64,000 nucleotides of DNA from Photobacterium swingsii (GTDB lineage Bacteria > Pseudomonadota > Gammaproteobacteria > Enterobacterales > Vibrionaceae): NCBI RefSeq assembly GCF_024346715.1, contig NZ_AP024853.1:124001-188000 (forward strand). Direction: 5' to 3'. Both the position numbers and the translations under genes were made by a program. Below are positions 6,557 through 64,000 of the stretch, one piece after another; position 1 is the first letter of the stretch, and each line of letters starts with the position of its first letter. Below the pieces are notes generated by a model. That model had not been told where the DNA came from. It made no database searches and was given only the letters and a program-made list of their open reading frames with translations.

Positions 6557-6573
6557 TTTGGTGGTTAATTGTA

Positions 6574-6589
6574 ATGCAAACGATTTTTA
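6574..6589. promoter_or_regulatory. Candidate PurR box 2 upstream of codB
   Basis: Reads ATGCAAACGATTTTTA, with GCAAACG matching the conserved half of the PurR operator. Its centre is 33 bp from box 1, about three helical turns, so two dimers could bind on the same face. Confidence 0.5.
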
Positions 6590-7048
6590 TCATTTCTATT
6601 GGGTGTAATGCCTAAATATCAATGTAAATGATCTTGCAAAGGAGAGTGCTTTTTTAATGAAATCGATAACATATGAGTTTTGCAGAGTGGGGTTTTAAGG
6701 GTGAGCTACCTTTTGCATATATGTGTAAGTGCTAATTCTTTATAAGAAATGGTGTAGAAATCATGATCAAAAATACAGTAGAAGGGCTGCTTTATCGTTT
6801 TGTCTCAAAGGGTAGAGCTTCTACAGCGGCATTTTCAAAAATGGGACGATGTTTTTCAAATTTGACATTGTCGTAAACAATGGCGTGGGTATGAATAGGT
6901 TTAAAAAATAATGAACAAGCTATTTTAGCTTGTATTTGGAATTTTATAATTTCGCTGAAAGTTTTATTAAAACAATCAGTTATATTCTGCTTTACTCTGT
7001 TTTATTTGTTCGACTAGGCTGTGAACAAAGTTAATCACAGATCTTTCG

Positions 7049-7071
7049 TTATCCACAGAAGCTGTGAATAA
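7049..7071. promoter_or_regulatory. Inverted pair of DnaA boxes
   Basis: TTATCCACA at 7049-7057, a perfect high-affinity DnaA box, is followed after 5 nt by TGTGAATAA at 7063-7071, the inverse of TTATTCACA, which fits the relaxed consensus TTWTNCACA. A third partial match (TTAATCACA) lies at 7031-7039. No replication gene is nearby. Confidence 0.4.
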
Positions 7072-7355
7072 CTCTGTGGGAAATGCTCACAGGCTAGAAA
7101 TCATGCCGCATCTGGTAAAGTCAATACTCTAGCTTGAGAGAAATTAGCGAAAAATAGCTTGTTTTGATTTAGTTCAATTCTTGAAAAAAGAGCGAGAAAT
7201 AAAATCGCTTTTGGCGTTGTTCGTGCTAATAGAGCAGGCGTGCTGTACTTTGATATAAGCTGATTTATTTATATAAATCTGAGAACTATCGAAGAGATTT
7301 TCTTGTTACTTTCCAATAGGCCTCAGTTTTGCTAATAGATACGCTTTGCTGTTTT

Positions 7356-8794: not shown

Positions 8795-9670
8795 TTATAC
8801 TGACGTTTTATCTTTAATGATTTTGATTGATGCAGTCATGCCGACTCGAAGTTGTAACTGTTGAGGCATTTGTTTGAGGTGCACTTTTACAGGTATACGC
8901 TGGGCTAGGCGGATCCACTGAAAGTTTGGGTTTACGTTTGGCAATAAAGCGTTGCCTGTGCTGCCATCTTGTTTTGCAATACCATAACCTATACTTTGAA
9001 TTTCACCTTTAAGTGGTTGATCATCATGCATCATCAAAGTGACTAAGGTTTTGTCTTTTGGATTAACATTTTGCAGATCTGTTTCTTTGAAAAAGCCTTC
9101 AATCCAAAAGCTATTTTGATCGATCAAAGCAACAACGGGAGTATTCGCGACAACTTGTGAACCGACACGATGACTAAGGTTCGTGATATAGCCATCTGTT
9201 GGTGCTGTAATTCTGGTGAACGTCAGATCTAACTGAGCAGCATCGATTTGCGCATCTGCCGCAAAAACACTGGCTTGTGCGGTTTCGACGGCATTGTGTA
9301 AGTTATTCAGCGTTAGTGTAGGGATAGCGCCTGGTGTACGTTTGATTAAATTCAGTGAACGACGTTCTTCATTTTTGGCTTTATTTAATAAAGCGATAGC
9401 CTGCTTTTGGCTTGCAAGGGCTTTGTTTAGGTTGTTTTTGTATACGCTGTCATCAATTTCAAATAACACCTCACCTTTTTTAACTTGTGCATTATCTTCA
9501 ATGTACATTTTTTTAATTTGCCCCGTTACACGTGGTGTGATTTGGATGACATATGCACGGACTTGTCCATCGCGTGTCCAAGGGTTTTGTGTATAAGTGA
9601 GGTAATGTGAATAGAGGATCACCGAAGCCGTCACCACTAAAATAAGGGTGAGTAAGTAACGTTTTAGCAT
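8795..9670 (-). CDS. HlyD-family periplasmic adaptor (AaeA-like)
   Basis: A 291-aa membrane-fusion protein. One N-terminal membrane helix (residues 5-25) is followed by the biotinyl-lipoyl-like strand region (TPRVTGQIKKMYIEDNAQVK), a short alpha-hairpin and the barrel segment FTRITAPTDGYITNL. It would link the inner-membrane pump encoded 11 nt downstream to an outer-membrane channel. The gene lies 12 nt after the DUF1656 gene on the same strand. Best comparison is E. coli AaeA (about 310 aa). Substrate cannot be read from the sequence. Confidence 0.9.
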   Translation of the reverse strand: MLKRYLLTLILVVTASVILYSHYLTYTQNPWTRDGQVRAYVIQITPRVTGQIKKMYIEDNAQVKKGEVLFEIDDSVYKNNLNKALASQKQAIALLNKAKNEERRSLNLIKRTPGAIPTLTLNNLHNAVETAQASVFAADAQIDAAQLDLTFTRITAPTDGYITNLSHRVGSQVVANTPVVALIDQNSFWIEGFFKETDLQNVNPKDKTLVTLMMHDDQPLKGEIQSIGYGIAKQDGSTGNALLPNVNPNFQWIRLAQRIPVKVHLKQMPQQLQLRVGMTASIKIIKDKTSV

Positions 9671-9682
9671 TGAATAATTCTC

Positions 9683-9889
9683 TTAAAAAATCGTGATGTA
9701 TTTACTGATGGCGTTGACAAAAATAACCATTAAGCACAGTTCGGCAATAACGGGAAAAGCTATGAAGCGGTACAACCCAAGCTTGCCAGCAATAAAAAAG
9801 GCAAAACTCGCCAGTGCATAAGCGATGATGACAACTAATAGAAGTGGCGGGATATACACTTCACCTAATGCAATTTCATGCGGCATCAT
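9683..9889 (-). CDS. DUF1656 small membrane protein (AaeX-like)
   Basis: A 68-aa protein starting MMPHEIALGEVYIPPLLL, the signature beginning of DUF1656, with two membrane helices. The family is always found beside HlyD/FUSC efflux genes, as here, and its role is not known. The ATG at 9889 has AGGTG 9 nt upstream; the in-frame TTG at 9916 would add nine residues not seen in the family. Confidence 0.85.
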   Translation of the reverse strand: MMPHEIALGEVYIPPLLLVVIIAYALASFAFFIAGKLGLYRFIAFPVIAELCLMVIFVNAISKYITIF

Positions 9890-9971
9890 AATTTTTGTCA
9901 CCTTTGGGCGGATCAACGTAGTTATTGAAAGGTGCTCAATGATAGAGGGAGGACTTAGCGGCTCGTAATCG

Positions 9972-49911: not shown

Positions 49912-50171
49912 TATTACCTCGGTATTATCTTGTTTTAGCCCTATAAATTTGAATTATTAGCTTTGTTAATCTATGAGACTAGATCAATATTTGGTGAGTA
50001 AACTTGCCCTTGCTCGTGTTTTAATGACCGCATCGCGAATTAAGTATCGAATTAACAATAGGTTGTATGGCTGGTCACATTTTAGGCGTGCTTCTTGTAA
50101 AGCCTTATGCTTTAGGGCTCGTTAATGTCATTATCTGATAGTTGTTTATTGTCTAAACTTGTTTGTTATTA

Positions 50172-50185
50172 TTGATTTAAATCAA
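50172..50185. promoter_or_regulatory. Perfect FNR-type palindrome TTGATTTAAATCAA
   Basis: The 14 bp read TTGAT, TTAA, ATCAA, a perfect match to the FNR consensus TTGATNNNNATCAA. It lies between the divergent flavoprotein and hypF genes, 175 bp before hypF and 261 bp from the flavoprotein start, and would allow anaerobic control of either. Confidence 0.75.
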
Positions 50186-50360
50186 TGTGATAGCAGAATT
50201 ATTGCTGAGTTTGGGCCAAAAGTAACCCCAACTGATTTAATGTGAACTTAGTCTAATTATTATTCACTCAATTACTTATCATACAAATATGTGTGCGTGT
50301 CGTTTTGGCGTATTTTGTCTAGCGTTAACGCGTTAGATATTTGGGGTAAGTTGGTGGGGC

Positions 50361-52889
50361 ATGGGGCAAATTCGGCAGTTAATTCATATTACAGGGATAG
50401 TACAGGGGGTCGGATTTCGACCTTTTATCTACAAACTGGCCAAGCAATATCAACTCAGTGGTTATGTGCTTAACAATGGTGATGGCGTTAGTATTGAGGT
50501 TGAAGGCGAGGAAAGACAAGTAACGGCTTTTTATAACGACATCACTTTGCAAGCGCCACCGCTGAGCCGTATTGATAGTATTACCGCCCAAGCGATTGCG
50601 GTTGTTGATGCGTTAACTTTTATTTCTGATAATGTCTCACCTGAACATACCCCCAAGTTTATTATTACCGAAAGTGACAGCAGTCAAAGTGCCACAGTGT
50701 GTGTGTCGCCAGACCAAGGTATTTGTCCTGCTTGCCTTGATGATATTAACGATCCAACCAATCGTCACTATCGTTACCCTTTCACCAATTGTACCCACTG
50801 CGGCCCACGCTATACGCTAATTAAACAGCTGCCTTATGATCGTAAGCAAACTTCGATGGCGGCTTTTGCTATGTGTCCTGATTGCGAAGCGGCTTATACC
50901 AACCCTGAAGATCGCCGTTATCATGCGCAACCTGTTAGCTGTCCTAAATGCGGGCCTTGGGTCAGTTTTTATGATCTAGCGTGTAAGGCAGAGCAACCCG
51001 AACCTATTGCTGATCATTATGCGGCGATAGAAGCAACAGCTGCTGCCTTGAATGCAGGGAAAATCATTGCGGTAAAAGGTCTTGGTGGTTTCCACTTAAT
51101 GTGTGATGCCACTAATCAACAGGCAGTCGCTCAGCTCAGACTTCGCAAACAACGCCAACGCAAACCGCTGGCGGTGATGATGAAAGATACACACCAAGCC
51201 CAATGCTATATAGAAGGCAGTCAGCAAGAGTGGGCACTATTAGGATCTCAGCAGCGGCCTATTACCTTATTTCGTAAAAAAGCATCGTGCTCAGGTTACG
51301 TAAGTGGTGAAGATCTTACTATTACGGCTCGGACTAGGGCTGATATTGCCGATAATGTCGCGCCCAATATCCCTTATCTTGGAGTGATGTTGCCTTACAC
51401 ACCGCTGCATTACTTATTATTCGATTTAGTAGATGTGCCTTTGGTGGCAACCAGCGCCAATATTTCTGGCTTTCCCATAATTGCGAACAGTGATGATATT
51501 TTCAGGCAGTTGGGGCATGTGGTGGATGGCGTACTCGATCATAACCGTGAAATCGTTCATTGCTGCGATGACAGCTTGGTCCAGGTTGCAGGCGGTAGAC
51601 GACAAACACTCCGTTTAGCCCGTGGTTATGCTCCTTATACTTTTTCGCTGCCACATAAGTTAACGCACCCTGTGCTGGCTGTGGGTGGACAGCAAAAAGT
51701 GACCTTTGGTTTGGGGTTTGCCGGGCAAGGGATCATCAGCCCACATGTCGGTGATATGTTTGGCTTGGACATGCAGCAACACTATCAACAAATGTTGAAT
51801 GGTTTTACTCATATTTATCACGTAAAACCACAAACGATAGTGTGCGACAAGCATCCAAACTATATGACCACAGAGTGGGCGCAGGACTATGTTGAAGGTT
51901 CTGTTCAAGGCTGTGTTCAGAAAAATGGTCAAGAAGCGGCTCAGGAAAATAGCCCCGACAGTATTCGCACTAACAACCACGACACGCGTTGCGAGAAGCC
52001 TGCTCAATTACTCCAGCTGCAACACCATCATGCCCATATTGTTGCTGTTATGGCTGAACACCAAATGCGAGAAACGGTATTAGGTTTTGCTTTTGATGGC
52101 ACAGGCTTGGGGGATGATCACCAAATTTGGGGTGGGGAGGTGTTACTGGCCGATCATCAAACGGCTAAGCGCCTTTATCATCTAAAACCCTTCCGCCTAA
52201 TCGGTGGTGAGCGAGCGATTAAAGAGCCCGCACGGATTTTGTTGGGCTTGCTGCTGGAGTATTACTCGTTCGAACAGATAAAAGCATTACAGCTAGACGC
52301 TTTTACCTGCATGCCTAACAGCAAACTCGATAACTTGTACCGATTATGGCTAACCGAACAGAGTTCACCTTATACCACTTCGATGGGGCGTTTAGTCGAT
52401 GCGTTTGCCAGCTTACTTGGCCTTGTTGAAAGGGTTGATTATGAAGGTGAGTGCGGTATGCGATTAGAAGCGCTTGCTATACAAGCAGAAGCAAATGAGG
52501 CGGTAGAACCGCTGCCTATCCCTATGTTTTTTGTTGAAAATGACGTTATCGATCCGCAACCCCTACTTGCGAGTGTGATCGATAATCTAATCACCAGTGC
52601 TACCCAATCAGATTCCTCTAACTTTATGGCTCAGCGAGACTTGGCGGTTAAGCTAAACGCGGCGAATCAGTTTTTTACCGCGCTGGTTGAGATGATCTAC
52701 ACCATCAGTGCCAAACACCCTGAGTACCCCGTTGTGGTCTCGGGTGGGGTTTTCCAAAACCGTGTGCTGATGGACAGGCTTGATGCCCGCTTTACATCTG
52801 AGGATCGTTCGTTTCTCACCAGCGAAATCATTCCACTTAATGATGGTGGGATCGCGATGGGGCAGCTTTGGCATGGATTATGGCAATAA
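50361..52889 (+). CDS. hypF: Carbamoyltransferase HypF
   Basis: An 842-aa HypF that makes the CN ligand precursor for [NiFe] hydrogenase from carbamoyl phosphate. Domains: acylphosphatase-like (HITGIVQGVGFRPFIYKLA, residues 8-26), two zinc fingers (CPACL...CTHCG near residues 121-150 and CPDCE...CPKCG near 172-200), YrdC-like (residues 215-400), Kae1-like with QLQHHHAHI. It is longer than the usual 750-780 aa because of a low-complexity insert at about residues 510-548. First gene of hypFCDE. Confidence 0.96.
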   Translation: MGQIRQLIHITGIVQGVGFRPFIYKLAKQYQLSGYVLNNGDGVSIEVEGEERQVTAFYNDITLQAPPLSRIDSITAQAIAVVDALTFISDNVSPEHTPKFIITESDSSQSATVCVSPDQGICPACLDDINDPTNRHYRYPFTNCTHCGPRYTLIKQLPYDRKQTSMAAFAMCPDCEAAYTNPEDRRYHAQPVSCPKCGPWVSFYDLACKAEQPEPIADHYAAIEATAAALNAGKIIAVKGLGGFHLMCDATNQQAVAQLRLRKQRQRKPLAVMMKDTHQAQCYIEGSQQEWALLGSQQRPITLFRKKASCSGYVSGEDLTITARTRADIADNVAPNIPYLGVMLPYTPLHYLLFDLVDVPLVATSANISGFPIIANSDDIFRQLGHVVDGVLDHNREIVHCCDDSLVQVAGGRRQTLRLARGYAPYTFSLPHKLTHPVLAVGGQQKVTFGLGFAGQGIISPHVGDMFGLDMQQHYQQMLNGFTHIYHVKPQTIVCDKHPNYMTTEWAQDYVEGSVQGCVQKNGQEAAQENSPDSIRTNNHDTRCEKPAQLLQLQHHHAHIVAVMAEHQMRETVLGFAFDGTGLGDDHQIWGGEVLLADHQTAKRLYHLKPFRLIGGERAIKEPARILLGLLLEYYSFEQIKALQLDAFTCMPNSKLDNLYRLWLTEQSSPYTTSMGRLVDAFASLLGLVERVDYEGECGMRLEALAIQAEANEAVEPLPIPMFFVENDVIDPQPLLASVIDNLITSATQSDSSNFMAQRDLAVKLNAANQFFTALVEMIYTISAKHPEYPVVVSGGVFQNRVLMDRLDARFTSEDRSFLTSEIIPLNDGGIAMGQLWHGLWQ

Positions 52890-52956
52890 GGCACAGGCTT
52901 ATAGGCATTCCGTCCTTAATAAAAAGAATATTACCAACTTGGAAGAGAGATAAATT

Positions 52957-53214
52957 ATGTGTTTGTGTATTCCCTCGCAGATAGTGGAAATCCACGCAGA
53001 GGACAGTACGGTCACGGTCGATACTTTGGGCGTCCGACGTAGGATCAGTACGCATTTAATCGAAGACCCATTGAGCATGGGGGATTACTTATTGATCCAT
53101 GTTGGCTTTGCTATTAGCAAAATCAATGAACAAGAAGCCTTAAAAAGCCTAGAAGAATACCGCTTATTATTGGCTGAAATGGGTGAAGAAGAAGCGAGAG
53201 CATTGTTTATATGA
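52957..53214 (+). CDS. hypC: Hydrogenase maturation chaperone HypC
   Basis: An 85-aa HypC/HupF-type chaperone. The N-terminal Cys2 in MCLCIPSQIV is the residue that holds the Fe(CN)2CO group; the rest is a small beta-barrel plus a C-terminal helix. It overlaps hypD by 4 bp (ATGA-type). Confidence 0.95.
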   Translation: MCLCIPSQIVEIHAEDSTVTVDTLGVRRRISTHLIEDPLSMGDYLLIHVGFAISKINEQEALKSLEEYRLLLAEMGEEEARALFI

Positions 53215-54425
53215 TTGAACTTAAAGATCTCTCCCAAGGCTTTCGTAACCCCGAGTTAATGCAGTCGCTTTCTCAACGTATTCATCAACTTTCTGCTCAA
53301 TTAAGTGAACCGATTAAAATCATGGAGGTGTGCGGTGGTCATACCCACACCATCATGAAATACGGTTTAAATCAGTTGTTACCCCGTAATATTGAATTCA
53401 TTCATGGTCCCGGCTGTCCTGTTTGTATCATGCCGAAAGAGCGGATTGATCATGCGATTGAACTGGCGATGTTACCCGAGGTCATTCTGGTAACCTTGGG
53501 CGATATGATCCGTGTACCTGGCTCGAAAGGTACCTTAGCGCAATGTCGTGCAAAAGGGGGCGATGTTCGTCCGGTTTATGATCCGCTTGATGCCCTTGAA
53601 ATCGCTAAGCAGAACCCAGATCGCAAGGTGGTCTTTTTTGCGATTGGTTTTGAAACCACCACACCAATGACAGCCGTGTTATTGGAGCTGGCTGAAAAGC
53701 AAAATGTCGCCAACCTCTATTTTCATATTAACCATGTGTTAGTGCCGCCTGCGGTTGATGCCGTAATGGCAGACGGCGCAGCCAAAGTTACCGCCTTTAT
53801 TGGTCCTTCGCATGTTAGTGCCATTACCGGTTCTGATATTTATCAGCCGATTGTCGATTGTTACCACACACCCGTTGTGGTGAGCGGCTTTGAACCTGTT
53901 GATGTGATGCAGTCGATTTTGATGATAGTGGAGCAGAAAGTACAAGGTGTCGCCAAGTTAGAAGTGCAATACACCCGTGTTGTCACAGCCAAAGGCAATC
54001 AAGCAGCACAGCAGAAAGTGGCGAGTATGTTCACCTTGCGTCCGCATTTTCGCTGGCGTGGCCTTGGCGATATCCCATTGTCATCTCTGGTGTTGTCGGA
54101 GCAATATCGTCATCGTGATGCAGAAGTTGTGTTTGCCGATGTTTTGTCGGATCAGGCGATAGAAGATCATAAAGCCTGTCAGTGTGCCGACATTTTACGA
54201 GGGTTAGCGAAACCGAATCAATGCCGTGTGTTTGGCCGAGGCTGTACCCCAACCAAACCAATGGGAAGTTGTATGGTCAGTTCGGAAGGGGCGTGCAATG
54301 CCTATTATCGCTATGCAGGCTTGGCGTTTGACCTCGATTTGAATAAAGACGCCGCGGCTAAAGAGGCTACAGCAGACGAAGCCTCGATAAACAGAGCTAA
54401 GACAGAAAAGGAGATCACAGCATGA
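53211..54425 (+). CDS. hypD: Hydrogenase maturation protein HypD
   Basis: A 404-aa iron-sulfur scaffold that assembles the Fe(CN)2CO unit with HypC. Motifs: EVCGGHTH, FIHGPGCPVC, FFAIGFETT and the C-terminal 4Fe-4S cysteines in CADILRG, QCRVFGRGCTPTKPMGSCMV. It overlaps hypC and hypE by 4 bp each. The extra C-terminal tail (Ala/Lys/Glu-rich, 20-25 residues) is unlike most HypD. Confidence 0.96.
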   Translation: MIELKDLSQGFRNPELMQSLSQRIHQLSAQLSEPIKIMEVCGGHTHTIMKYGLNQLLPRNIEFIHGPGCPVCIMPKERIDHAIELAMLPEVILVTLGDMIRVPGSKGTLAQCRAKGGDVRPVYDPLDALEIAKQNPDRKVVFFAIGFETTTPMTAVLLELAEKQNVANLYFHINHVLVPPAVDAVMADGAAKVTAFIGPSHVSAITGSDIYQPIVDCYHTPVVVSGFEPVDVMQSILMIVEQKVQGVAKLEVQYTRVVTAKGNQAAQQKVASMFTLRPHFRWRGLGDIPLSSLVLSEQYRHRDAEVVFADVLSDQAIEDHKACQCADILRGLAKPNQCRVFGRGCTPTKPMGSCMVSSEGACNAYYRYAGLAFDLDLNKDAAAKEATADEASINRAKTEKEITA

Positions 54426-55414
54426 GAACTGTTCAACTAAGCCATGGTGGCGGTGGTCAGGAAATGAATAAACTGATCAGTGATCTGTTTTTCCACCATT
54501 TTCAAAACGAGATACTGTTGAAAGCTGAAGATGCCGCGGTATTGCAGCTTGAAGGGCCGATTGCGTTCACGTCAGATAGCTTTACCGTTTCTCCGTTGTT
54601 TTTTGCGGGTGGCGACATTGGTAAGTTGGCGATAGCAGGCACAGTGAATGACTTAGCCATGGTCGGTGCACAGCCGCAATACCTGAGTTGTAGCTTCATC
54701 ATCGAAGAAGGTTTTGAGTACCACAAGCTTGAAACCATAGTGAAAAGCATGAAAGCGGAACTAGAAAAATCGGGTGCACAAATCGTGTGTGGCGATACTA
54801 AAGTCGTGCCTCGTGGTGCGGCTGATGGCGTGTTTATTAACACAACAGGCGTTGGCACGGTTAAATACCCCAATATTTCGGTAAGTCAGCTGCAGGCGGG
54901 CGATGCCATTTTGGTTTCTCGCGATATTGGTTGTCATGGTAGCTGTATATTAATGGCTCGTGATGAACTGCGCTTAGAGTCTGAGCTAGTGAGTGATTGT
55001 GCGACATTGTGGCCAGTGGTCGAGCGCCTGATTGAGTCTGGGGTTTCCCTTCATGCTATGCGCGACGCGACTCGCGGTGGTTTGTCGGCTGTTTTGAATG
55101 AATGGTGTGAAGGCTCCAAAATCCAAATTGATGTCGAAGAAGAGAAAATCCCTGTTGCCGATGCTGTGCAAGGCTTGTGTGAATTATACGGTTTTGAGCC
55201 CTACGATTTAGCCAACGAAGGCACCATGATTTTGGCGGTTCCCGCGAAAGATGTTCCTGCCGCTTTAGATGTGTTGCGCCTGTTTTCACCAAGCGCCCAA
55301 CAGATAGGCACCGTGGTTGAAGCACAACAGCACAAAGTGATTATGCATAACCCATGGGGCGGGCGTCGTTACCTTGAATTACCGCAAGGCGAGCTGTTAC
55401 CGCGTATTTGTTAG
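54422..55414 (+). CDS. hypE: Hydrogenase maturation protein HypE
   Basis: A 330-aa HypE that dehydrates the HypF-made thiocarboxamide to the thiocyanate. It has SHGGGGQEMNKLI near the start, FTSDSFTVSP, GTVNDLAMVGAQP and the terminal PRIC, whose Cys carries the thiocyanate. It is the last gene of the operon and is closed by a large hairpin. Confidence 0.97.
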   Translation: MRTVQLSHGGGGQEMNKLISDLFFHHFQNEILLKAEDAAVLQLEGPIAFTSDSFTVSPLFFAGGDIGKLAIAGTVNDLAMVGAQPQYLSCSFIIEEGFEYHKLETIVKSMKAELEKSGAQIVCGDTKVVPRGAADGVFINTTGVGTVKYPNISVSQLQAGDAILVSRDIGCHGSCILMARDELRLESELVSDCATLWPVVERLIESGVSLHAMRDATRGGLSAVLNEWCEGSKIQIDVEEEKIPVADAVQGLCELYGFEPYDLANEGTMILAVPAKDVPAALDVLRLFSPSAQQIGTVVEAQQHKVIMHNPWGGRRYLELPQGELLPRIC

Positions 55415-55467
55415 CATCAGTAATAGATGAATTGCGCTTATTTTAGTGAGTGCGATGAGTAAGGGAG

Positions 55468-55516
55468 GCAGGGGGGATTAAGCATTGACGAATTCGTGCT
55501 TCCTCCCTGCTTCTAT
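55468..55516 (+). terminator. Terminator after hypE
   Basis: Arms GCAGGGGGG (55468-55476) and CCTCCCTGC (55502-55510) with an internal ACGAATTCGT palindrome in the loop, then TTC and a T-rich stretch. It separates the hyp operon from the peptide cluster to its right. Confidence 0.7.
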
Positions 55517-55675
55517 GACTTTCTTTACATTCTCTCGGGCTTAGAGTGCGAAAGGTAATGCGTCAAATTAGGTCGAAAACTCCTCGATTAAGCGATATTT
55601 AACTTCGTTAAAATCACATGCGAAAATGATGTATGTCACTGTAATTTATGTGTATACATGATATTTTTCAGTTGA

Positions 55676-55691
55676 TTTAATCCAGATTAAA
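55676..55691. promoter_or_regulatory. Inverted repeat before the peptide-cluster operon
   Basis: TTTAATC, CA, GATTAAA, twenty bp before the first ATG at 55712. Either an operator or part of the leader. A wider stretch (55610-55670) is very AT-rich and should hold the promoter. Confidence 0.4.
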
Positions 55692-55711
55692 CATATTTAG
55701 GTCGTTCAACC

Positions 55712-55993
55712 ATGAGTGAAGATTTGAAGCCGTTTGATTGTGAGGCTTGCGGTGAATGTTGTAGACATATCCATTTAGTCGAAGGGCTGAAACACTTACA
55801 AACTAATGGTGTATGCGACTACTTGGAAGGCAATAAATGCAGAATTTATAGTAGAAGACCAGAACTTTGTCAGTATGAAAAAGTGTTTGAGTTATATAAA
55901 AACCAATACACAGCAAAGGAATTCTATGATTTAACAGTTAAGTTTTGCAATGAATTAAAAGAAATAAAACGATTGCGAGAAGAAAATGATTGA
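55712..55993 (+). CDS. YkgJ-family cysteine-cluster protein, first gene of the RiPP-like operon
   Basis: A 93-aa protein with CEACGECCRH at residues 10-19 and further Cys at 35, 43, 53 and 79; CRIYSRRPELC is the typical second half of the YkgJ zinc/iron-chelating cluster. Eight Cys for 93 residues. The family's reaction is not known, but members often sit beside radical SAM enzymes. It overlaps the radical SAM gene by 8 bp, so both are made together. A role in cluster supply or in holding the peptide is inference. Confidence 0.88.
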   Translation: MSEDLKPFDCEACGECCRHIHLVEGLKHLQTNGVCDYLEGNKCRIYSRRPELCQYEKVFELYKNQYTAKEFYDLTVKFCNELKEIKRLREEND

Positions 55994-57029
55994 ACATTCG
56001 TTGCTTAGACAACAACAAGAATTTATTGAGCAGGAAATAAAGCAAGTTACTGAAAATCAAAAAAATGGTTTGTACCCTCTAGAATTTCCAATGCCTATTG
56101 GAGTTCAGTTCGAATTAACGATGAAGTGCAACTTGTACTGCAAGCATTGCTACAATGCGTCAGGTGAAGATGCTTGTACTGATAGAATGGATATTAGCTC
56201 GTGGTTGTCAGTAATAGATAACATCAACGAAAACGGTGGTGTTTTCCAATGCATTATCTCCGGAGGAGAGCCACTACTTTATGGTAAGAACATGTTCACA
56301 GTCATGGATGCACTCCATGAAAAGGGGACTGGCTTCATATTAATTACAAACGGGATGTTAATCCGTCCATCAACAGTTAAAAAGCTACAAAAGTATAACT
56401 ATTATTGGGTTCAGGTTTCTATTGATGATTTTGATGCTGCAAAGCATGATGATTTCCGTGGAGTTACAGGCTCATGGGACAAAGCAATAGAGGCTGCTTT
56501 TTTACTTTCTAGTGCGGGGCTACCACTGCGAATTGCTCATTCAGTAACGCCAGAAAATTTATCTAGATTACCTGATATGGTCGATCTTGCCTATCAACTT
56601 GGCGCATCATCTATAGTGTGTGGTGCAATTATGCCAAGTGGACGAGCTTCAAATGATGAAACTATTGTTTGTACTAGTGAAGGTTTCCTAACTGAATTGT
56701 ATAACATCATTCAAAACAAACAGTGTGAATATAATGGCAGAATGGAAGTCCTGTCTAGTTCGAATCTAAAAGAAGACATAATAAGAAAGAAAAACCAACC
56801 TAACTCTGCAATTGTAGTTCGACCAAATGGTGATGTTCGTATGGATTGCACAATGCCGTTTGTTCTAGGGAATGTTTTTGACGATAAGTTTTCTGCTATA
56901 TGGAAAAAGCATGGTAATTCATGTTGGTCACATCCGAAGGTTAATGAATACATTTCTAAGTTAGATATGTATGGAGAGCACCCGGAACATAAAAATCATA
57001 CAGACCTTGATATTCAGTTAGATGATTAG
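55986..57029 (+). CDS. Radical SAM enzyme of the RiPP-like operon
   Basis: A 347-aa radical SAM protein. The 4Fe-4S/SAM motif is C48, C52, C55 in MKCNLYCKHCYN; GGEP (SGGEPLLYG) and the TNG motif in ITNGMLI follow, and VQVSIDD is a typical strand 6. The C-terminal region VVRPNGDVRMDC then MPFVLGNVFDD looks like the start of a SPASM/twitch domain but has only C288 and C313, too few for a full SPASM. Such enzymes make thioether, C-C or D-residue modifications in peptides. The substrates are probably the two small peptides encoded directly downstream, 8 bp after its stop. Confidence 0.93.
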   Translation: MIEHSLLRQQQEFIEQEIKQVTENQKNGLYPLEFPMPIGVQFELTMKCNLYCKHCYNASGEDACTDRMDISSWLSVIDNINENGGVFQCIISGGEPLLYGKNMFTVMDALHEKGTGFILITNGMLIRPSTVKKLQKYNYYWVQVSIDDFDAAKHDDFRGVTGSWDKAIEAAFLLSSAGLPLRIAHSVTPENLSRLPDMVDLAYQLGASSIVCGAIMPSGRASNDETIVCTSEGFLTELYNIIQNKQCEYNGRMEVLSSSNLKEDIIRKKNQPNSAIVVRPNGDVRMDCTMPFVLGNVFDDKFSAIWKKHGNSCWSHPKVNEYISKLDMYGEHPEHKNHTDLDIQLDD

Positions 57030-57037
57030 GAAGATAT

Positions 57038-57253
57038 ATGAAAAAAAAATATATTAAACCAGTTATAGCAACAAGCTCATTTAGGGTTGGTTTACCTACT
57101 GTCTTGGCTGTAGGTGCTGTCGCAGCGGCGGCAGGAGCGGCTTCGGTTGCTGTTGGAAAAATGGTTGGTGATATTACTAATATTAAAGCAAGTCATAATA
57201 GTGGCAATTTGAAGGTTAGAGGCTCTAATGAAAAAAACGTATGCATCGCCTAA
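57038..57253 (+). CDS. Candidate RiPP precursor peptide 1, Ala/Gly-rich
   Basis: A 71-aa peptide. A basic start MKKKYIKP is followed by a polar stretch (residues 9-18), an Ala/Gly/Val-rich hydrophobic run (residues 19-40, starting LPTVLAVGAVAAAAGAA), then the motif KMVGDITN (residues 41-48) and a polar, Asn/Ser-rich tail with a single Cys69 near the end. It shares the MKKxYxxP start, the Ala/Gly run and the K-x-x-G-D motif with the next gene. AGGAAGATAT lies before the ATG. The last 26 bp overlap the start of precursor 2 in another frame. No known family; a membrane-inserting bacteriocin-like peptide is one reading. Confidence 0.7.
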   Translation: MKKKYIKPVIATSSFRVGLPTVLAVGAVAAAAGAASVAVGKMVGDITNIKASHNSGNLKVRGSNEKNVCIA

Positions 57254-57434
57254 TTGTATTTTGGGTACTCAGTTGAAAACGATGGCCGCACCATTGGCTA
57301 TTTTTTCAGCAGCAACAGCCGCAGCTGCTGCTGTGGGCCTTGTAGCTGGCGCTGCTGCTACATCTAAACTTATTGGTGATGACATCAATCGATGTACTAT
57401 ACGAAAGTTAAAAAAAATTGAGGGTTTCATTTAA
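57228..57434 (+). CDS. Candidate RiPP precursor peptide 2, Ala-rich
   Basis: A 68-aa peptide starting MKKTYASPNC, then a polar segment, a very Ala-rich hydrophobic run (residues 20-44, PLAIFSAATAAAAAVG and LVAGAAATS), then KLIGDDIN (residues 47-54), Cys56 and a basic tail. Cys10 and Cys56 are its only cysteines. It is a paralogue in layout, not in detail, of precursor 1. It starts inside the end of precursor 1, and its stop (TAA) shares a base with the PqqD-like gene's ATG, so all three are translationally coupled. Confidence 0.7.
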   Translation: MKKTYASPNCILGTQLKTMAAPLAIFSAATAAAAAVGLVAGAAATSKLIGDDINRCTIRKLKKIEGFI

Positions 57435-57736
57435 TGAGTGCCGTTGTATTCGATAAACTTAAATCATTACAACTGGTATCAAATCCATTAAAGGTTCGTG
57501 ATGATGGTGAATTTTTAATTGCAATGAATGAAAGCATGGAGCTGTTTTACTTTAAAGATACGGCTAAAGATATGTTGTTGAAAGTAATCGAGTCAAAACC
57601 GACAGTTCAAGAATTGTTGGATTACTTATTGTCAGAGTATGATGTATCAAAAGAATTACTGATAAAAGATGTCATTCAATTCGTTAGAGATCTACAGTGG
57701 CAACGCTTGATTTCTATGAAGTGTGTGATTAATTAA
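57434..57736 (+). CDS. PqqD-like RiPP recognition (RRE) protein
   Basis: A 100-aa protein with the PqqD layout: strands around PLKVRDDGEFLIAMNESMEL, then three helices (TAKDMLLKVIESKPTVQELL, DYLLSEYDVSKELLIKDVIQ, FVRDLQWQRL). PqqD-type RREs bind the leader of a precursor peptide and present it to the modifying enzyme, here the radical SAM protein. Last gene of the operon, closed by a strong terminator. Confidence 0.87.
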   Translation: MSAVVFDKLKSLQLVSNPLKVRDDGEFLIAMNESMELFYFKDTAKDMLLKVIESKPTVQELLDYLLSEYDVSKELLIKDVIQFVRDLQWQRLISMKCVIN

Positions 57737-57747
57737 TAAAAATATTA

Positions 57748-57772
57748 AGAAAAGCAGTCAGTGACTGCTTTT
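57748..57772 (+). terminator. Strong intrinsic terminator ending the RiPP-like operon
   Basis: Perfect 11-bp arms AAAAGCAGTCA and TGACTGCTTTT with a one-base centre, followed by TT; 12 nt after the PqqD-like stop. Confidence 0.9.
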
Positions 57773-57996
57773 TTATACTGTAGTGTTTTCCCTACCAAAA
57801 CTAATCCGATTTAGAGGGGTATATAATCACCTCATATACTCGATAGCATTGTGAAATAATATGTGACGAAATTTTTGCGCTTGCTTTTCGCTGACTAAAA
57901 CGCTGCTCATAATTAATGTCAATCAAATTTAATTATTTTATTTCAGTACTTTAGATGGTAAGTTTTCGCCTTTATTTGGTTTTATAGGCTTATCTT

Positions 57997-60495
57997 GTGC
58001 GGTGTTTTTCTATTTTCCCTATAATTGCAGCGCTTGCTGGTAGTCCAAGTTTAGCTGCAGATCCATTATCAGAATTTAAAAATGAATTACAACAGCCGAA
58101 GCTTAGCGCTGAGCAGCGACTTACGCTGGCTGAGTCTATCACCAAGCATACCGCTTGGAGTGCAGGGGCATTGGCGCAATTCTATTACACGGGGGAGGGG
58201 CTAGAGTCGCCGAATAAAGATCGTGCGTTGGCAATGTTTGAATTGAGCGCACAATTAGGCGATGCGTATTCAGCTTACAGTGCATTTTTAGGTCATATCC
58301 AAGGTTGGTCAAGTCAATCAGACCCAAGCAAAGCGGCATCATATTTATGGCAAGCCGCAAAAGCCGATATTAGACAATCTCGAATGTATTTAGCGGAAGG
58401 TTATCGAACGGGCAACTATGGATTGCCTCAAGATTTAAAAGCTGCGATGCAATGGGCTTATACGACTGAAGTGCCGCCGCAAATGCATTTGGATATGTGT
58501 CTTCAAGAGGACCCTTTATATCTAAGCCAGCATTGTGTTAATGAATGGGTTAAACCAGCCGCATTGCAAGGCGATGCGATAGCAAGTTACCGCATGGGAT
58601 TACAGTTTCAGCATGGCATTAGTATGCTGACTCCAGATCTAAATGAGGCGAATACTTGGTTTGAAAAGGCGGGTAACTACGGACCTGCGTTATTCGCTCG
58701 CGGTGATCTTTTATTTGCTCAACAAGGAAACTCTTTTTTCACTAAAGACGATAGCGAGCAGATGAAATCATTGTTGTTCACTGCCGCTCAAGCGGGTGAG
58801 CTTGGCGCGTTTACAGAACTCGCGTATGTGATGATTAATGGTGGTGAATCTGACTCTGCTTTGATGTTACTAAGTCAAGCCGACATAGTTGGATCGTGTG
58901 ACGCTGCATGTAAGTATCAATTATCAGTGCTGCTTGAAAACGGCGAGCCTGAAAACGCTGAAGCATATTTACAAAGTGCGATGAGTGAAGGTGATGCCAA
59001 CGCTTTGCTTGAGACTGCGCTTAAACAAGCCCCTGATTTACCTGAAACTCGCGCTAAAATTTACCAAGCAGCAATTAAAGGCAATGTAACTGCAATGCTA
59101 TGGTTGATGGATAGAGCAAATGAGTCGGGCGATAAAGAGCAAGCGATTATTTGGCGTCAAGAAGCGGCAGCTTTTCAAGACAGATATAGTCAGTTTGAGT
59201 TGGCCTTGCACGCGCGTAAAGAGCATTGGTATGAAGCTTCTAGCTATTGGAGGAGCAGAAACGAGTTTTCTAATCGCTTTAAAGATGACGTTAATGTCTT
59301 AGCTGATAGTGGGCGTTCTGAAGTACGCGAGGATGCCATTCAATATACAAAACAATTTAGCGGTGATCTGAAAAAGCGTTATCAAGAGTTGAACGCCCAG
59401 CATGATGAGCCAAATTATTATTTAGAACATAACCGCTTACTTAACCAACTTAAGCGTGTTCGCTTTCGTGACTACTCATTATCGCCATGGCGAATTGTCG
59501 CTGAAGCCCCTGATGTACCGCAAATAGAGGCTTATAACCGTACTGATAAAGTGCCAAGGAGATATAAAGATGGGCGTTTAGCCGTGGATGGGTCTTGGAA
59601 TCCGCCCGAGAAACTCCCATTTAAATTATTGGCTAATAATCAAAGTGTGCAACAAAGCCATTGTGGATACTTATTTAATCGTGCGACAGGGGAGCATCTT
59701 TTGATCCACCGCTTGAAAGGCGGATGTCGTCCTGAACCAAGTATTTTGGCTCGACTTGAGCAAGAAGGGGCGAAAAAGCTAGTTCATAACGACGCGGCTT
59801 CAGCTGCTTTATTTGATGATGGAAGTGTTGTCACTTGGGGCGGTGCTATGGCTGGTGGCAGTCCTATTCTTGCAGCATCTAATTTTGAAGATTCAGCCTA
59901 TCAAAGCCTTGATGATGAAATCAAAGTTTACCGTCGTTTACAAGCGAATATTGTCGATATCGCGCCCGTGCAAAGCCATTTCCTCGCCTTAGATAGCTCA
60001 GGGAATATTTTGCTTTGGGGACCAATGGCTTATCATTTTGGTAGTGAAATTAAAGGTGAGTATCAAGCACTGGCAGCGAGCCCTGATAGTGACCGTTTTT
60101 GTGCGTTGAGTCGTAATGGTGATGTCGATTGCTGGGATTTAGGTGGCGGCGCTTCACCACGAGTTATTGCTCATAACAAGGCGCGCGTGATGAAAGTTGA
60201 AGGTACTTTTGACACTTTTGCAATGCTTGATGAAAATGGACAATTGACATTACAGTCTATCGTTATGAATCAAGGCATCAATGATTTATTACCGACGATT
60301 GATAAAAGTAAGCGCTGGAAAAAGTTAGAACAAGTAGTTGTTTACGGTAGGCTACGAACTCTTCTGATTGATACGGATGATAAACTCTATTACATCAAGC
60401 CAAATCATCAAAAGTTAGAATTAAAATCGGTACATAATACTGGCGAAGAAACGCTATTTATTACTTCAAATGAAACAATGGCATATTTGAACTAG
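57997..60495 (+). CDS. Exported Sel1-repeat/RCC1-like protein
   Basis: An 832-aa protein with a signal peptide (IIAALAGSPSLA, then ADPL), Sel1-like alpha-repeats (about residues 50-330; GALAQFYYTGEGL, NKDRALAMFELSAQLGDAYS are repeats) and a C-terminal RCC1-like half (about 590-830) with the VVTWGGAM, ILLWGPM and DVDCWDLGGG strands. It starts at GTG, the only good start in frame after a TAG at 57985. Such Sel1 proteins usually act as adaptors in the envelope; the RCC1-like half is unusual. AT content is moderate, unlike the RiPP cluster before it. Confidence 0.8.
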   Translation: MRCFSIFPIIAALAGSPSLAADPLSEFKNELQQPKLSAEQRLTLAESITKHTAWSAGALAQFYYTGEGLESPNKDRALAMFELSAQLGDAYSAYSAFLGHIQGWSSQSDPSKAASYLWQAAKADIRQSRMYLAEGYRTGNYGLPQDLKAAMQWAYTTEVPPQMHLDMCLQEDPLYLSQHCVNEWVKPAALQGDAIASYRMGLQFQHGISMLTPDLNEANTWFEKAGNYGPALFARGDLLFAQQGNSFFTKDDSEQMKSLLFTAAQAGELGAFTELAYVMINGGESDSALMLLSQADIVGSCDAACKYQLSVLLENGEPENAEAYLQSAMSEGDANALLETALKQAPDLPETRAKIYQAAIKGNVTAMLWLMDRANESGDKEQAIIWRQEAAAFQDRYSQFELALHARKEHWYEASSYWRSRNEFSNRFKDDVNVLADSGRSEVREDAIQYTKQFSGDLKKRYQELNAQHDEPNYYLEHNRLLNQLKRVRFRDYSLSPWRIVAEAPDVPQIEAYNRTDKVPRRYKDGRLAVDGSWNPPEKLPFKLLANNQSVQQSHCGYLFNRATGEHLLIHRLKGGCRPEPSILARLEQEGAKKLVHNDAASAALFDDGSVVTWGGAMAGGSPILAASNFEDSAYQSLDDEIKVYRRLQANIVDIAPVQSHFLALDSSGNILLWGPMAYHFGSEIKGEYQALAASPDSDRFCALSRNGDVDCWDLGGGASPRVIAHNKARVMKVEGTFDTFAMLDENGQLTLQSIVMNQGINDLLPTIDKSKRWKKLEQVVVYGRLRTLLIDTDDKLYYIKPNHQKLELKSVHNTGEETLFITSNETMAYLN

Positions 60496-60517
60496 GTTGT
60501 TTCTTTGCATGGTAAGG

Positions 60518-60553
60518 GCCTCTTTAACTGTATAAGGTTAAAGAGGCTTTTTT
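60518..60553 (+). terminator. Terminator after the Sel1/RCC1-like gene
   Basis: Arms GCCTCTTTAAC and GTTAAAGAGGC around TGTATAAG-like loop, followed by a run of six T, 22 nt past the stop. Confidence 0.9.
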
Positions 60554-60763
60554 ATTTCGCTATCTAGCTATGGCAACGACCTAACCTTATCTAAAAACAA
60601 CGCATTGTTAACGCCCCAAGTTGTCTAAAAAGGTTCTGTGACGAAATTCTGCATTTAATCTTGCGATAAAATAAAATGCCATTCATGATTGGCGTGTGAT
60701 GAGTTTAATAAGTCAGACCTTACCGCTATTGCTGGGCAGAAGGTTTAAGGTCCTTTTTCTTAC

Positions 60764-61552
60764 TTAAGAACACTGCATCGACTTTAGGTGTAGCGTGTTC
60801 ATAAATAATCTTGGGTCTGCAATATTATTGAGCATTGATTGAGTGGGTAAGCAATCATCATCGACGTAGTCGACATAATCCGCTGATGAATCAAAAATCA
60901 AGATATCCAACGCCAAACGATCCAATCCGTATAGGCCACGGTGGATCATATCCGCTGAAAACACCAATAAGTCGCCCGCCGCTAACGCAATTGGCTTACC
61001 GCCAGAGATGCTATCACTGCTTACTTTGCCATTCACTTCTTGGCGAACATTGTACTCTTCTTCATTGTCCCATCGCTTGTGCGTGCCGGGTATGATCTCC
61101 ATGCCGAGCTCATCAAATAAGGGCACGCGAAGATGCAACACTTGTGTTTCGAGTATGACTTTCATCTGGTCTTCAATGTCATAGTCGTATTGACAGTCAC
61201 GATGCCAGAAGTCTTTTTGTTGCGGATTCACCGGATTGAAGAACAACTGCGTGTTCATAAACGCTGGATTTTCCGGAATCACCGCATCGACCACGTCCAT
61301 GATTTTTGGGGAGCTGATGAAGTTAAAAAGTATCTTTCTATCATTGCTGAGCAAATATTCGCTTCCCGTAATTAAAGACGAGTTAAACGCTTCTTCCTGA
61401 TAGAATTCTTCGTTGTCTGCTTTCCATAATTCATGGAATTTCAATACCACTTCTCTAAGCGATGCAATTTGAGCTTCATCGAAATAATTTCTAATAACAA
61501 AGTAACCATGTTCGTTGTAACTGTTACTTAATTGTTGGCTGTTTTTTAACAC
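60764..61552 (-). CDS. Phytanoyl-CoA dioxygenase-family protein
   Basis: A 262-aa Fe(II)/2-oxoglutarate dioxygenase-fold protein of the PhyH family. The HxD of the metal triad is in FWHRDCQ and the distal His in DMIHRGLYG, with LEIIPGTHKRW between (as in EIIPGTHKRW). It begins with a YxEHGYFVIRNYFDEAQI-type helix (SYNEHGYFVIRNYFDE). Substrate unknown; marine bacteria use such enzymes on osmolytes and natural products. Single gene. Confidence 0.88.
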   Translation of the reverse strand: MLKNSQQLSNSYNEHGYFVIRNYFDEAQIASLREVVLKFHELWKADNEEFYQEEAFNSSLITGSEYLLSNDRKILFNFISSPKIMDVVDAVIPENPAFMNTQLFFNPVNPQQKDFWHRDCQYDYDIEDQMKVILETQVLHLRVPLFDELGMEIIPGTHKRWDNEEEYNVRQEVNGKVSSDSISGGKPIALAAGDLLVFSADMIHRGLYGLDRLALDILIFDSSADYVDYVDDDCLPTQSMLNNIADPRLFMNTLHLKSMQCS

Positions 61553-61806
61553 TGACTACCTTCACACTCTTTGTACCGTTTACTGTTCACGGCGTTCTTT
61601 GGTGCATGATGCCAGACTGGCGCCATTCAACCAAGTAACTAATGAGGGGATAACTGGCGATGGTGAGAGTAGACTTTGGCGGTATTATTGATTTACAAAA
61701 TAGGGTCAAAACAGCTAAAGAAAAGTACCGAGAAGCTATACAATACTCGCGTTGCGAGGTCGCAGCATGGGATACTCATTCATAGAAAACCTCAAAGTAG
61801 CCACAT

Positions 61807-62271
61807 ATGTCTAAAGATTTTGATTTCACCATAGAATACACCCTCGATAAGCTCTTCTTTGCTGAGTGTTATGATCAAACTAGCCGTCCTGCTGAATTTC
61901 CAAAAGCCTATTTAAAAGGAATACTTTTTCTGATTTTTGGGGTGGTTTTAGTTAAATTTGAGCTACTACCCACTGGTCACGTTGGTTGGTTCTTTATTGT
62001 TTTGAGTATTGTTGAGGCACTTAGTGTTTATTTTAAGAGAACCTGGTGGCTATGGCGACAAACATTCAGTATGAGCTTTGGCAGCAAAGTGGTATTTCAT
62101 GTTGACGCTAACGGTGTGAATTATAAAAGTGGTAAAAATACGCGTAACATCGCTTGGAGTGACATCGACCAACTTCAACAAACTGATTTAGGCTTTATCC
62201 TTCATATGGGTAAACGGCGTCAATATGTCAGTAAATCTTGCTTAAGCGATGAAGTGATTGCATCATGGTAG
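61807..62271 (+). CDS. YcxB-like small membrane protein
   Basis: A 154-aa protein with two membrane helices (about residues 36-57 and 60-78) followed by a cytoplasmic domain with KSGKNTRNIAWSDIDQLQQ, the YcxB-like C-terminal domain. The role of YcxB proteins is not known. No SD of note: AGTAGCC lies before the ATG. Confidence 0.75.
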   Translation: MSKDFDFTIEYTLDKLFFAECYDQTSRPAEFPKAYLKGILFLIFGVVLVKFELLPTGHVGWFFIVLSIVEALSVYFKRTWWLWRQTFSMSFGSKVVFHVDANGVNYKSGKNTRNIAWSDIDQLQQTDLGFILHMGKRRQYVSKSCLSDEVIASW

Positions 62272-62472
62272 AGCAGCACGCAGCATCCAAAAAGAACTAA
62301 CGTCAGTGCACGCCAAATAAAGGAAGTGAAGCGCTCGCGTGCATGTGGTTCTACGTAATTTAAAATGCAGCCCAGCTTGATGAATACAAGTTGATGAATA
62401 CAAGCCAAGCTGCATGCGACCCTAGTTATGGTAAAAATGCCTTGCTAAAGGTAAAGGTAGCTAGGTCGTTGA

Positions 62473-64000
62473 TTAGCTTACTCGCTTGTGTTCAAGGTGT
62501 AACATGGCTTCTAATACGCTACCTGCAATTGCGCGTGCTTTATCTGATACCGTAGTGTAATCCGCTTCCGCACCTCTAGGGTCAATATCACCAATCTTAA
62601 AGCCTTCTCGAACGGTCAGGCCATCGTTTAATAACCCGCGTACCATTCCGCTTAGTGGGGCGATTACAGGGCTGTCACCGATATGGGCAATGACATCATC
62701 TTCTTCAACCAGATCGCCAAGTTTGACGTGGTTATGCATGACACCTGCACATGGCGACCTAAGTACGCGTTGATGTGTATAACCTGCAATATTGCCGGGA
62801 ACGCCTGTATTTGGCTGGGTTGAACCGTGGTAAATCACTCGACCTAAATGATGGCCTCGATTGGTTTCAATAACGGCATCACAATCTTTACCTGCGGTAA
62901 AACCTGGGCCTAAGGCGATGGTAATTGGCGCCATGTCTTTTTGAGTACCGAGATTGTGCTTGGCAAGGATCGTATCAACCAAGAATGTGGGTTTTAGTGT
63001 CTCTGCCGAGGTGCAATCTTCATCGATCACAACCGGAATTTGGTTGCGGTCAATGATATCGAACACTTCGTCTTTGTTATTGGCTTTGCAGGCTGTGATT
63101 CCTTCTACTTCGATGGGGTTGCCATATAAGCACTGCCCGAACGATACGCCGCAGCGAATCATGGTGGGTTTGGCGATATCTGTCATCACGACTTTATAGC
63201 CGGCATTGAATAAGCGAACAGCAACGCCGGTTGATATGTCTCCCGCGCCGCGTAGTAACACCAATTTATTGCGGTTAAGGCGGGTATCATCTTTCATTTG
63301 GCCGCCCGCTGACTCATGTTTCACCTTGAGGATTTCAGCCATTATGCTGATGGCGATCTCCTCCGGTGTTTCAGCGCCGATATTGAAACCGATAGGGGAG
63401 TGGATATTTTTGATCCTATCTTCATCGACACCACTCTGACGCAGGTGAGTAAAAAGTGCCTGTACTTTACGACGACTCGCCATAAGACCGGTATAGCGGG
63501 TTTCACAGTCGACGACTTTGGATATAGCATCTTGATCTTGGTGATTCGTCGCGATGACGACATAGCTGTCTTTGTTGATATCGAGTTGCTCGATGGCCTG
63601 CTCCATGGTATCGCCGAGTAGACGTTTGGTGCCGATTGGAAAATGCGCTTCGGCGAGACTATCGGCATAGGCATCGGCGACAGAAATATCGAAACCCAGT
63701 ACGTGAGCGGCTTGGGCAACGGCACGGTTGACATGCCCAGCACCAATAAGAATCAAGCTAGGGCGCAAACCATAGACGTCGATAAACACTGTCATCGCGC
63801 CACCACAATCCATGCCCATCGCATCAGGGCCATTGCGGGTCATACGTCCTTTAACAACGCGAGGCTTTTTCTCTTGTAGCGCTTCCAAGGCTTGTTCAAT
63901 CACATATCGCTCAATCATCCCACCGCCAACTGTGCCTGTGATGGTGCCATCAGCCTTGATGATCATCTGGCCTGAATGGCGTGGTGCCGAGCCGCGGGTT
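62473..64000 (-). CDS. yqeB: YqeB, XdhC-type selenium/molybdenum hydroxylase maturation protein (5' end off right edge)
   Basis: At least 509 codons. The N-terminal XdhC-CoxI-type domain is visible (TRGSAPRHSGQM just before the window edge, then GTVGGGMIERYV, GPDAMGMDCGGAM, ILIGAGHVNRAVAQ), followed by the YqeB/EF2563-family part (LLRGAGDISTGVAVRLFNAG, CGVSFGQCLYGN, IALGPGFTAGKDCDAVIETN). YqeB is named in the EF2563-type selenium-dependent molybdenum hydroxylase maturation systems; E. coli YqeB is about 540 aa. The reading frame is open to the window's end, so the start is outside. Confidence 0.9.
   Translation of the reverse strand, partial: TRGSAPRHSGQMIIKADGTITGTVGGGMIERYVIEQALEALQEKKPRVVKGRMTRNGPDAMGMDCGGAMTVFIDVYGLRPSLILIGAGHVNRAVAQAAHVLGFDISVADAYADSLAEAHFPIGTKRLLGDTMEQAIEQLDINKDSYVVIATNHQDQDAISKVVDCETRYTGLMASRRKVQALFTHLRQSGVDEDRIKNIHSPIGFNIGAETPEEIAISIMAEILKVKHESAGGQMKDDTRLNRNKLVLLRGAGDISTGVAVRLFNAGYKVVMTDIAKPTMIRCGVSFGQCLYGNPIEVEGITACKANNKDEVFDIIDRNQIPVVIDEDCTSAETLKPTFLVDTILAKHNLGTQKDMAPITIALGPGFTAGKDCDAVIETNRGHHLGRVIYHGSTQPNTGVPGNIAGYTHQRVLRSPCAGVMHNHVKLGDLVEEDDVIAHIGDSPVIAPLSGMVRGLLNDGLTVREGFKIGDIDPRGAEADYTTVSDKARAIAGSVLEAMLHLEHKRVS

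Follow-up and report, generated by a model that had tools for sequence, protein, structure and literature searches.

A five-gene radical SAM operon of Photobacterium swingsii looks like part of an unnamed family of modified-peptide systems

The window analysed here is a stretch of 64,000 nucleotides from Photobacterium swingsii (contig NZ_AP024853.1, positions 124,001 to 188,000), and the subject is a compact operon in it whose five genes encode a YkgJ-type cysteine-cluster protein, a radical S-adenosylmethionine (SAM) enzyme, two small precursor peptides and a discrete PqqD-like protein. Judged by its gene layout, this is a system for ribosomally synthesised and post-translationally modified peptides (RiPPs) and belongs to no named family among those tested. 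The same gene set also occurs in a planctomycete and in the Selenomonadaceae, so that it appears to represent a genuine, as yet unnamed family of systems for modified peptides. An initial annotation had proposed the five overlapping or nearly overlapping genes, and the open reading frames (ORFs), their spacing and Pfam confirmed them. It had also read them as a RiPP-type radical SAM operon without a recognised family, a view that is supported by the conserved gene set, by the co-occurrence of peptides and enzyme and by the finding that no NCBIfam model reaches its cut-off for the operon proteins.

Gene set and distribution of the family

From 5' to 3' the genes are joined by an 8-bp overlap, an 8-bp gap, a 26-bp overlap between the two peptide genes and a 1-bp overlap (Table 1). 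A scan of genome contigs for the radical SAM motif pattern, made on a sample of 590 stretches, gave at least six clear homologues of the enzyme with 40-44% identity, followed among the matches listed by a gap down to 30%. In what follows L numbers denote loci and G numbers genomes of this analysis. A metagenome-assembled genome of the Planctomycetia (L167) has the identical order of YkgJ, radical SAM enzyme, peptide 1, peptide 2 and PqqD. In the Selenomonadaceae loci L168-L171, of which L170 comes from genome G797, one or two peptides lie between the radical SAM enzyme and PqqD, with YkgJ in front and more peptides behind. Profile A7 of the enzyme matches 23 of the 189 genomes of the Selenomonadaceae family of G797 (E<=1e-70), and the operon itself is present in 19 of the 189, always with a radical SAM match of E<=1e-146.

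The window, L167 and these 19 operons make up the set of 21 on which the following counts are based. PqqD and at least two peptides (two to five in each) occur in all 21, and so does YkgJ, which in L263 is only a 51-aa fragment and in L267 has a downstream position. The YkgJ ORF overlaps that of the radical SAM enzyme in 17 of the 18 operons counted, L259, L263 and L267 having been omitted and starts taken as the ORF lister gives them. The 21 operons share the broad layout of a RiPP system, with several precursors that have a leader motif and a variable core, a modifying enzyme and a RiPP recognition element (RRE). Because homologous gene sets occur independently in the planctomycete and in the 19 Selenomonadaceae-family genomes, a chance origin can be excluded.

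The remaining genomes matching profile A7 include a variant, L268 and L269, in which PqqD comes first and is accompanied by a related radical SAM enzyme and peptides; no YkgJ match was found there within the 4 kb covered (about 1.5 kb on each side). On the reverse complement of L268 (493-1137) three similar tandem precursors (KKKYRTPKV...) precede PqqD and the radical SAM gene, a sister architecture. L270 and L271, the rest of the 23, hold distant relatives of the enzyme. The locus L172 of Blautia sp. MSJ-9 was excluded from the family: its radical SAM protein is 40% identical, the cassette is different and neither YkgJ nor PqqD is matched. At 5500-7975 of that locus the enzyme adjoins a second radical SAM gene and a 60-aa Cys-rich peptide, in what looks like a different radical SAM peptide cassette.

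Peptides and enzyme genes travel together. The peptide profile A13 (28 peptides) matches 21 of the 189 Selenomonadaceae-family genomes, 20 of which pass the radical SAM search too; in the twenty-first, G864, two contig ends each carry the 3' part of the radical SAM gene, immediately followed by peptides and then PqqD. The initial annotation had named peptide genes without the radical SAM and PqqD-like genes as what would speak against it; for the radical SAM gene, all 21 peptide-bearing genomes carry it, one of them cut at contig ends. Three genomes are positive for the enzyme and give no match to the peptide profile, namely G855 (L270), G876 (L271) and G896 (L268), and in L268 peptides were seen by eye. 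On the two G864 contigs (L304 and L305) the end of the radical SAM gene, the first peptide and PqqD are nearly unchanged and the later peptides differ. This may be a sign of fast peptide change, and fast turnover, two copies or mixed strains may lie behind it.

On the side of the window the operon is scarce. The radical SAM enzyme has one match in its own genome at E<=1e-3, and only this copy was found in 60 relatives (E<=1e-40), 52 genomes of the genus (E<=1e-60), 394 of the order (E<=1e-25) and 350 of the class (E<=1e-70). Some genomes belong to more than one of these sets, and the class search used the enzyme profile A10, which contains distant rows. A search of 369 genomes of the class with the PqqD-like protein as a single query likewise gave only its own genome. 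Of 146 genomes in the planctomycete's order, one has the enzyme. When A10 was run on 190 genomes, 99 passed 1e-60 and only the known G797 and G814 lay above the gap, which separates matches of 7.8e-168 and better from those of 4.6e-76 and worse. In the tree the window groups with L167 (support 84/98), and since the branches are long no firm claim is drawn from this grouping.

Precursor peptides, enzyme and companion proteins

Three features form the hallmark of the precursors, as read from their sequences: a leader motif of the lasso type (YxxP followed by a hydrophobic residue), a turn made of a hydrophobic residue and Pro, and a stretch rich in Ala, Gly and Val. No Pfam family reaches its cut-off for peptide 1 or peptide 2. 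Precursors were chosen by an [YF]..P filter near the start and then by eye, so that YxxP is necessarily present in all 64. Of these, 63 have the full motif [Y/W]xxPx[L/V/I/F/A]; the sole exception is peptide 2 of the window, whose leader motif ends in Cys (YASPNC). The full motif is given in the available part of PMC13381572 as the one read by discrete lasso RREs. The hydrophobic-Pro turn lies 9-20 residues after YxxP in 58 of 64 peptides, whereas 500 shuffles gave 14.8 on average and 25 at most. Selection did not involve this later Pro, except in A13, whose 28 rows were picked from the 64. In those 28 rows Y, P and P are invariant, which is weaker evidence because the rows were hand-picked.

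The composition of the core was counted only on the 58 peptides with the turn. The stretch that follows it contains 40% Ala, 13% Gly, 12% Val and 10% Leu, and its length up to the first K, R, D, E, H, N or Q ranges from 0 to 56 residues. Trp occurs in four of these cores, Tyr in 22 and Phe in 49, and three have none of the three. In 52 of 64 precursors no Cys follows the leader motif. The 64 peptides used for the KhhGD (h, hydrophobic) and full leader motif counts include four from L268 and L269, which in the turn and Cys counts are replaced by four from L304 and L305. An Ala/Gly run followed by KhhGD had been noted at the outset and is present in both window peptides (KMVGD and KLIGD); as a defining motif of the family it was rejected, being found in only 4 of the 64 peptides, the two of the window among them. 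The pairing of precursors likewise applies to the window, where there are two, and two is the minimum of the two to five seen across operons. A shared C-terminal motif (DFCMA/NVCIA) was rejected as independent evidence because it falls inside gene overlaps, with the start of the next gene in the window (57228-57253) and with pqqD in L170 (6298-6317). The strong variation of the peptides between relatives suggests products under diversifying pressure.

The enzyme matches PF04055 (E 7.5e-20), and its SPASM domain (PF13186) falls just below the cut-off (20.8 against 21.5 bits). Beyond the CxxxCxxC motif it has a single invariant Cys, C288, in 21 of 21 operons, and for this reason its SPASM-like domain is predicted to be unable to hold an all-Cys auxiliary cluster. 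The nearest solved fold to the predicted structure is that of the sactisynthase SkfB (sporulation killing factor). Sub-threshold matches were obtained to the AlbA, StsB, SkfB and PapB models, with scores far under the curated cut-offs. The PqqE equivalog (TIGR02109) scores 89.6 bits, below its cut-off of 381.35, and the tryglysin models WgkB and WgkC give 83.1 of 650 (NF050035) and 24.2 of 110 (NF050069). The pVip/viperin equivalog (NF038283) scores 60.5 bits, below its cut-off of 180; an antiviral viperin was rejected, as the similarity is that of the superfamily only and the PADLOC pVip match (E 2.8e-19) covers just residues 40-157.

The YkgJ-type protein matches PF03692 (E 3.7e-5) with 24.8 bits, above the cut-off of 23, and its eight Cys are invariant in the 20 aligned rows of A11, which include the window and omit the L263 fragment. 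The Cys motif CX4CX3CC of FliB, which its authors compared with PF03692, binds [4Fe-4S] according to the part of PMC8598068 available, and by analogy we infer an iron-sulphur (Fe-S) role for the protein here. Its model has a mean predicted local distance difference test (pLDDT) score of 80.1, with the five models spread over 59.0-80.1, and gave no Foldseek match in the PDB. The PqqD-like protein matches PF05402 (E 1.7e-7), and the family profile A12 matches PqqD (5sxy, E 7.1e-7) and the lasso RRE TbiB1 (E 1.3e-5).

Genomic setting of the operon

The operon lies directly downstream of hypE, named from annotated matches, and is followed at 57997-60495 by a gene for an 832-aa protein with Sel1 and RCC1-type repeats. 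The absence of a transporter or protease, remarked on in the initial annotation, holds for these two neighbours. The operon has a G+C content of 37.0%. The window as a whole has 42.6%, the two preceding genes have 47.9% and 48.6% and the following gene has 43.6%; 3.8% of the 2025-bp stretches of the window are as low as the operon. No tRNA was found in the window and no Rfam match at 50000-64000.

Table 1. Genes and terminator of the operon, with their positions in the window
Feature	Positions	Strand	Remarks
YkgJ-type CxxCxxCC protein, 93 aa, probable metal/Fe-S accessory protein	55712..55993	+	PF03692; eight invariant Cys
Radical SAM enzyme, 347 aa	55986..57029	+	C48/C52/C55 and a lone invariant C288; C-terminal domain SPASM-like, lacking the usual set of Cys
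Precursor peptide 1, 71 aa	57038..57253	+	Leader YIKPVI, GLPTVLAV turn, Ala/Gly run, KMVGD; homologues directly after the radical SAM gene in L167 and Selenomonadaceae loci
Precursor peptide 2, 68 aa	57228..57434	+	Leader YASPNC, AAPLAIF turn, Ala/Gly run, KLIGD
Discrete PqqD-like RRE, 100 aa	57434..57736	+	PF05402
Terminator-like hairpin closing the operon	57750..57772	.	10 pairs; hairpin on - in the scan, T run on + by eye

In the close relative G1140 (L334) the flanks are 93-94% identical and the segment between them differs: some 12.1 kb of other genes stand in place of the 2.3 kb that contain the operon in the window. The DNA of the Sel1/RCC1-repeat gene is 94% alike at the same site. The match of G386 and G382 to the window likewise ends just after hypE. 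The operon is accessory. Horizontal transfer is inferred from the lower G+C content, the patchy presence and the variable site after hypE. The insert of G1140 after hypE (window site 55443-57783) encodes, by eye, GTPase-like, LysR-like and hydrolase-like proteins, and near its right edge there is a 70-bp, 88% copy of the 3' end of hypE (window 55320-55389).

The best match of the window HypE in the plasmid collection is labelled Aeromonas caviae (70.7%). Two plasmid records match the radical SAM enzyme at E<=1e-20, and none matches the PqqD-like protein or peptide 1. In the small mobilizable plasmid pMCCL1 of Macrococcoides caseolyticum (L003) two adjacent radical SAM genes follow a ThiF-family gene and a major facilitator superfamily transporter is present; no precursor of the kind found in the operon is annotated on it. 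One phage record matches the enzyme, with 25% identity. The best match of the viral scans is E 8e-25 with 26% identity (L039), and the rest are weaker or short and, as far as seen, generic radical SAM proteins.

Candidate chemistry and significance

The operon peptides very probably undergo RiPP-type maturation, and the change made to them is probably aliphatic and not a thioether. On balance we favour an unnamed RiPP family in which the RRE presents aliphatic peptides to a radical SAM enzyme without an auxiliary cluster, epimerisation through C288 being the likeliest reaction. The reasons for this choice are that the enzyme appears unable to bind an auxiliary cluster through Cys alone and that C288 is its only additional invariant Cys; taken by itself, the assignment of epimerisation with C288 as the hydrogen donor is tentative. 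In such a system the PqqD-like RRE would bind the leader motif Y-x-x-P-x-[hydrophobic] of each peptide and present the hydrophobic-Pro turn and the Ala/Gly/Val-rich core to the enzyme; the hydrogen that the enzyme abstracts would come from an aliphatic residue, either close to the turn or within the Ala/Gly run. Conversion of L- to D-residues, which is redox-neutral, could follow, with C288 giving back the hydrogen, and the YkgJ-type protein may act as a metal-cluster partner that supplies electrons or resets C288. An epimerase leaves the mass of its peptide unchanged in H2O. Leader removal and export would depend on functions coded elsewhere in the genome. Among five genomes with longer flanks (L171 and L355-L358) no shared transporter or peptidase gene was seen on reading the starts of those ORFs that reach at least 90 aa, and single, unshared transporters do occur in them. 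Downstream of the operon in L355 (G867, 9570-9905) there is a bacteriocin-like ORF of 111 aa with an apparent double-glycine-type leader (EEQLNQVAGG).

Proteusins have a Nif11- or nitrile-hydratase-like leader and cores rich in small aliphatic residues, the latter like the operon peptides. Their epimerases (PoyD and OspD type) resemble the operon enzyme in combining the lack of an auxiliary cluster with one extra Cys, a place that C288 would take here, whereas a discrete PqqD-like RRE, a YxxP leader and a YkgJ partner set the operon apart from them. The accessible part of PMC8326336 describes PoyD-type radical SAM epimerases as having no auxiliary cluster, a single conserved extra Cys and a C-terminal RRE. 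With the pyrroloquinoline quinone (PQQ) system (PqqA, PqqD and PqqE) the operon shares a discrete PqqD-like RRE, a radical SAM maturase and a small peptide, but it has several divergent precursors, no all-Cys auxiliary set and a YkgJ gene, and the PqqE model stays far below its cut-off. Lasso peptide systems pair a YxxP leader with a discrete PqqD-type RRE (B1), the binding of the two being predicted here; neither the five operon proteins nor the protein encoded next downstream has a macrolactam synthetase or B2 peptidase domain, and a radical SAM enzyme takes the place of these. FliB has the PF03692-type Cys motif but is a methyltransferase, whereas the operon protein is a stand-alone radical SAM neighbour of 93 aa.

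The YkgJ-type protein could also supply an auxiliary Fe-S cluster in trans, and the pair would then cross-link, dehydrogenate or alter the backbone of the Ala/Gly-rich core by oxidative chemistry. Its eight invariant Cys, its presence at all 21 loci, the frequent overlap of its ORF with that of an enzyme without an all-Cys set of its own, and the [4Fe-4S] bound by the related motif of FliB (PMC8598068, in the part available) all fit this idea. It is nevertheless unlikely, as L268 and L269 have the related enzyme, PqqD and peptides and no YkgJ match in the flanks covered, and the YkgJ model has no counterpart in the PDB. Nor do we know of a RiPP radical SAM enzyme that receives a cluster from a separate protein. 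A degenerate-precursor variant of a sactipeptide, ranthipeptide or cyclophane (triceptide) system would fit the SkfB-like fold and the sub-threshold AlbA, StsB, SkfB and PapB matches, but those scores are far below the curated cut-offs, most precursors have no Cys after the leader motif, and the C-terminal domain has a single invariant Cys and no all-Cys cluster set. SkfB itself makes a thioether from Cys to the alpha carbon, as stated in the part of PMC8326336 available, and differs from the operon in the same two respects. Cyclophanes and triceptides are recognised by an aromatic residue in a conserved three-residue core motif. As a whole, a degenerate-precursor system of the sactipeptide, ranthipeptide or cyclophane kind is distinctly improbable.

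That the products are peptide-derived cofactors or housekeeping factors is improbable. The combination of a radical SAM enzyme, PqqD and a small peptide is indeed the layout of PQQ and mycofactocin, and no exporter, protease or immunity gene lies beside the window operon or is shared by the five other genomes. A diversifying product is however indicated by the two to five divergent peptides per operon and by the differing downstream peptides of the two G864 contigs; moreover the operon is found in one of 52 genomes of the genus and its site is occupied by other genes in the close relative. Modification of the peptides at all is presumed, and Ala/Gly-rich sequence, being low in complexity, arises easily by chance. 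The peptides might be hydrophobic membrane peptides that stay unmodified, or their ORFs might have arisen by chance next to a radical SAM gene unrelated to them. Both are very improbable, given the homologous peptides beside the enzyme in the window, the planctomycete and the 19 Selenomonadaceae-family genomes, the co-occurrence in 21 of 21 genomes, the hydrophobic-Pro spacing far above its shuffled maximum and, with less weight as the rows were picked, the invariant Y, P and P of A13.

No description of the operon gene set was found in the open-access literature searched. One paper that contains both YkgJ and radical SAM genes places them, in the part available, in separate islands and proposes no partner role there. 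We know of no earlier proposal of such a role for YkgJ (PF03692) beside a radical SAM enzyme. The variable peptides and their patchy presence suggest a role in competition or signalling, and the products may be membrane-active antagonists or signals. The three phyla concerned are diderm bacteria, and a bolder proposal, which we regard as doubtful, is a new RiPP class spread over them in which a radical SAM enzyme without an auxiliary cluster and a YkgJ partner put D-residues or another aliphatic change into two to five fast-changing peptides with lasso-type leaders. As it stands, the favoured family would offer RiPP chemistry a compact system of five genes that has a defined leader motif and lacks a dedicated exporter or protease next to it. 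The Cys pattern of its radical SAM enzyme predicts an unusual reaction, and the YkgJ (PF03692) family would gain a partner role beside radical SAM enzymes.
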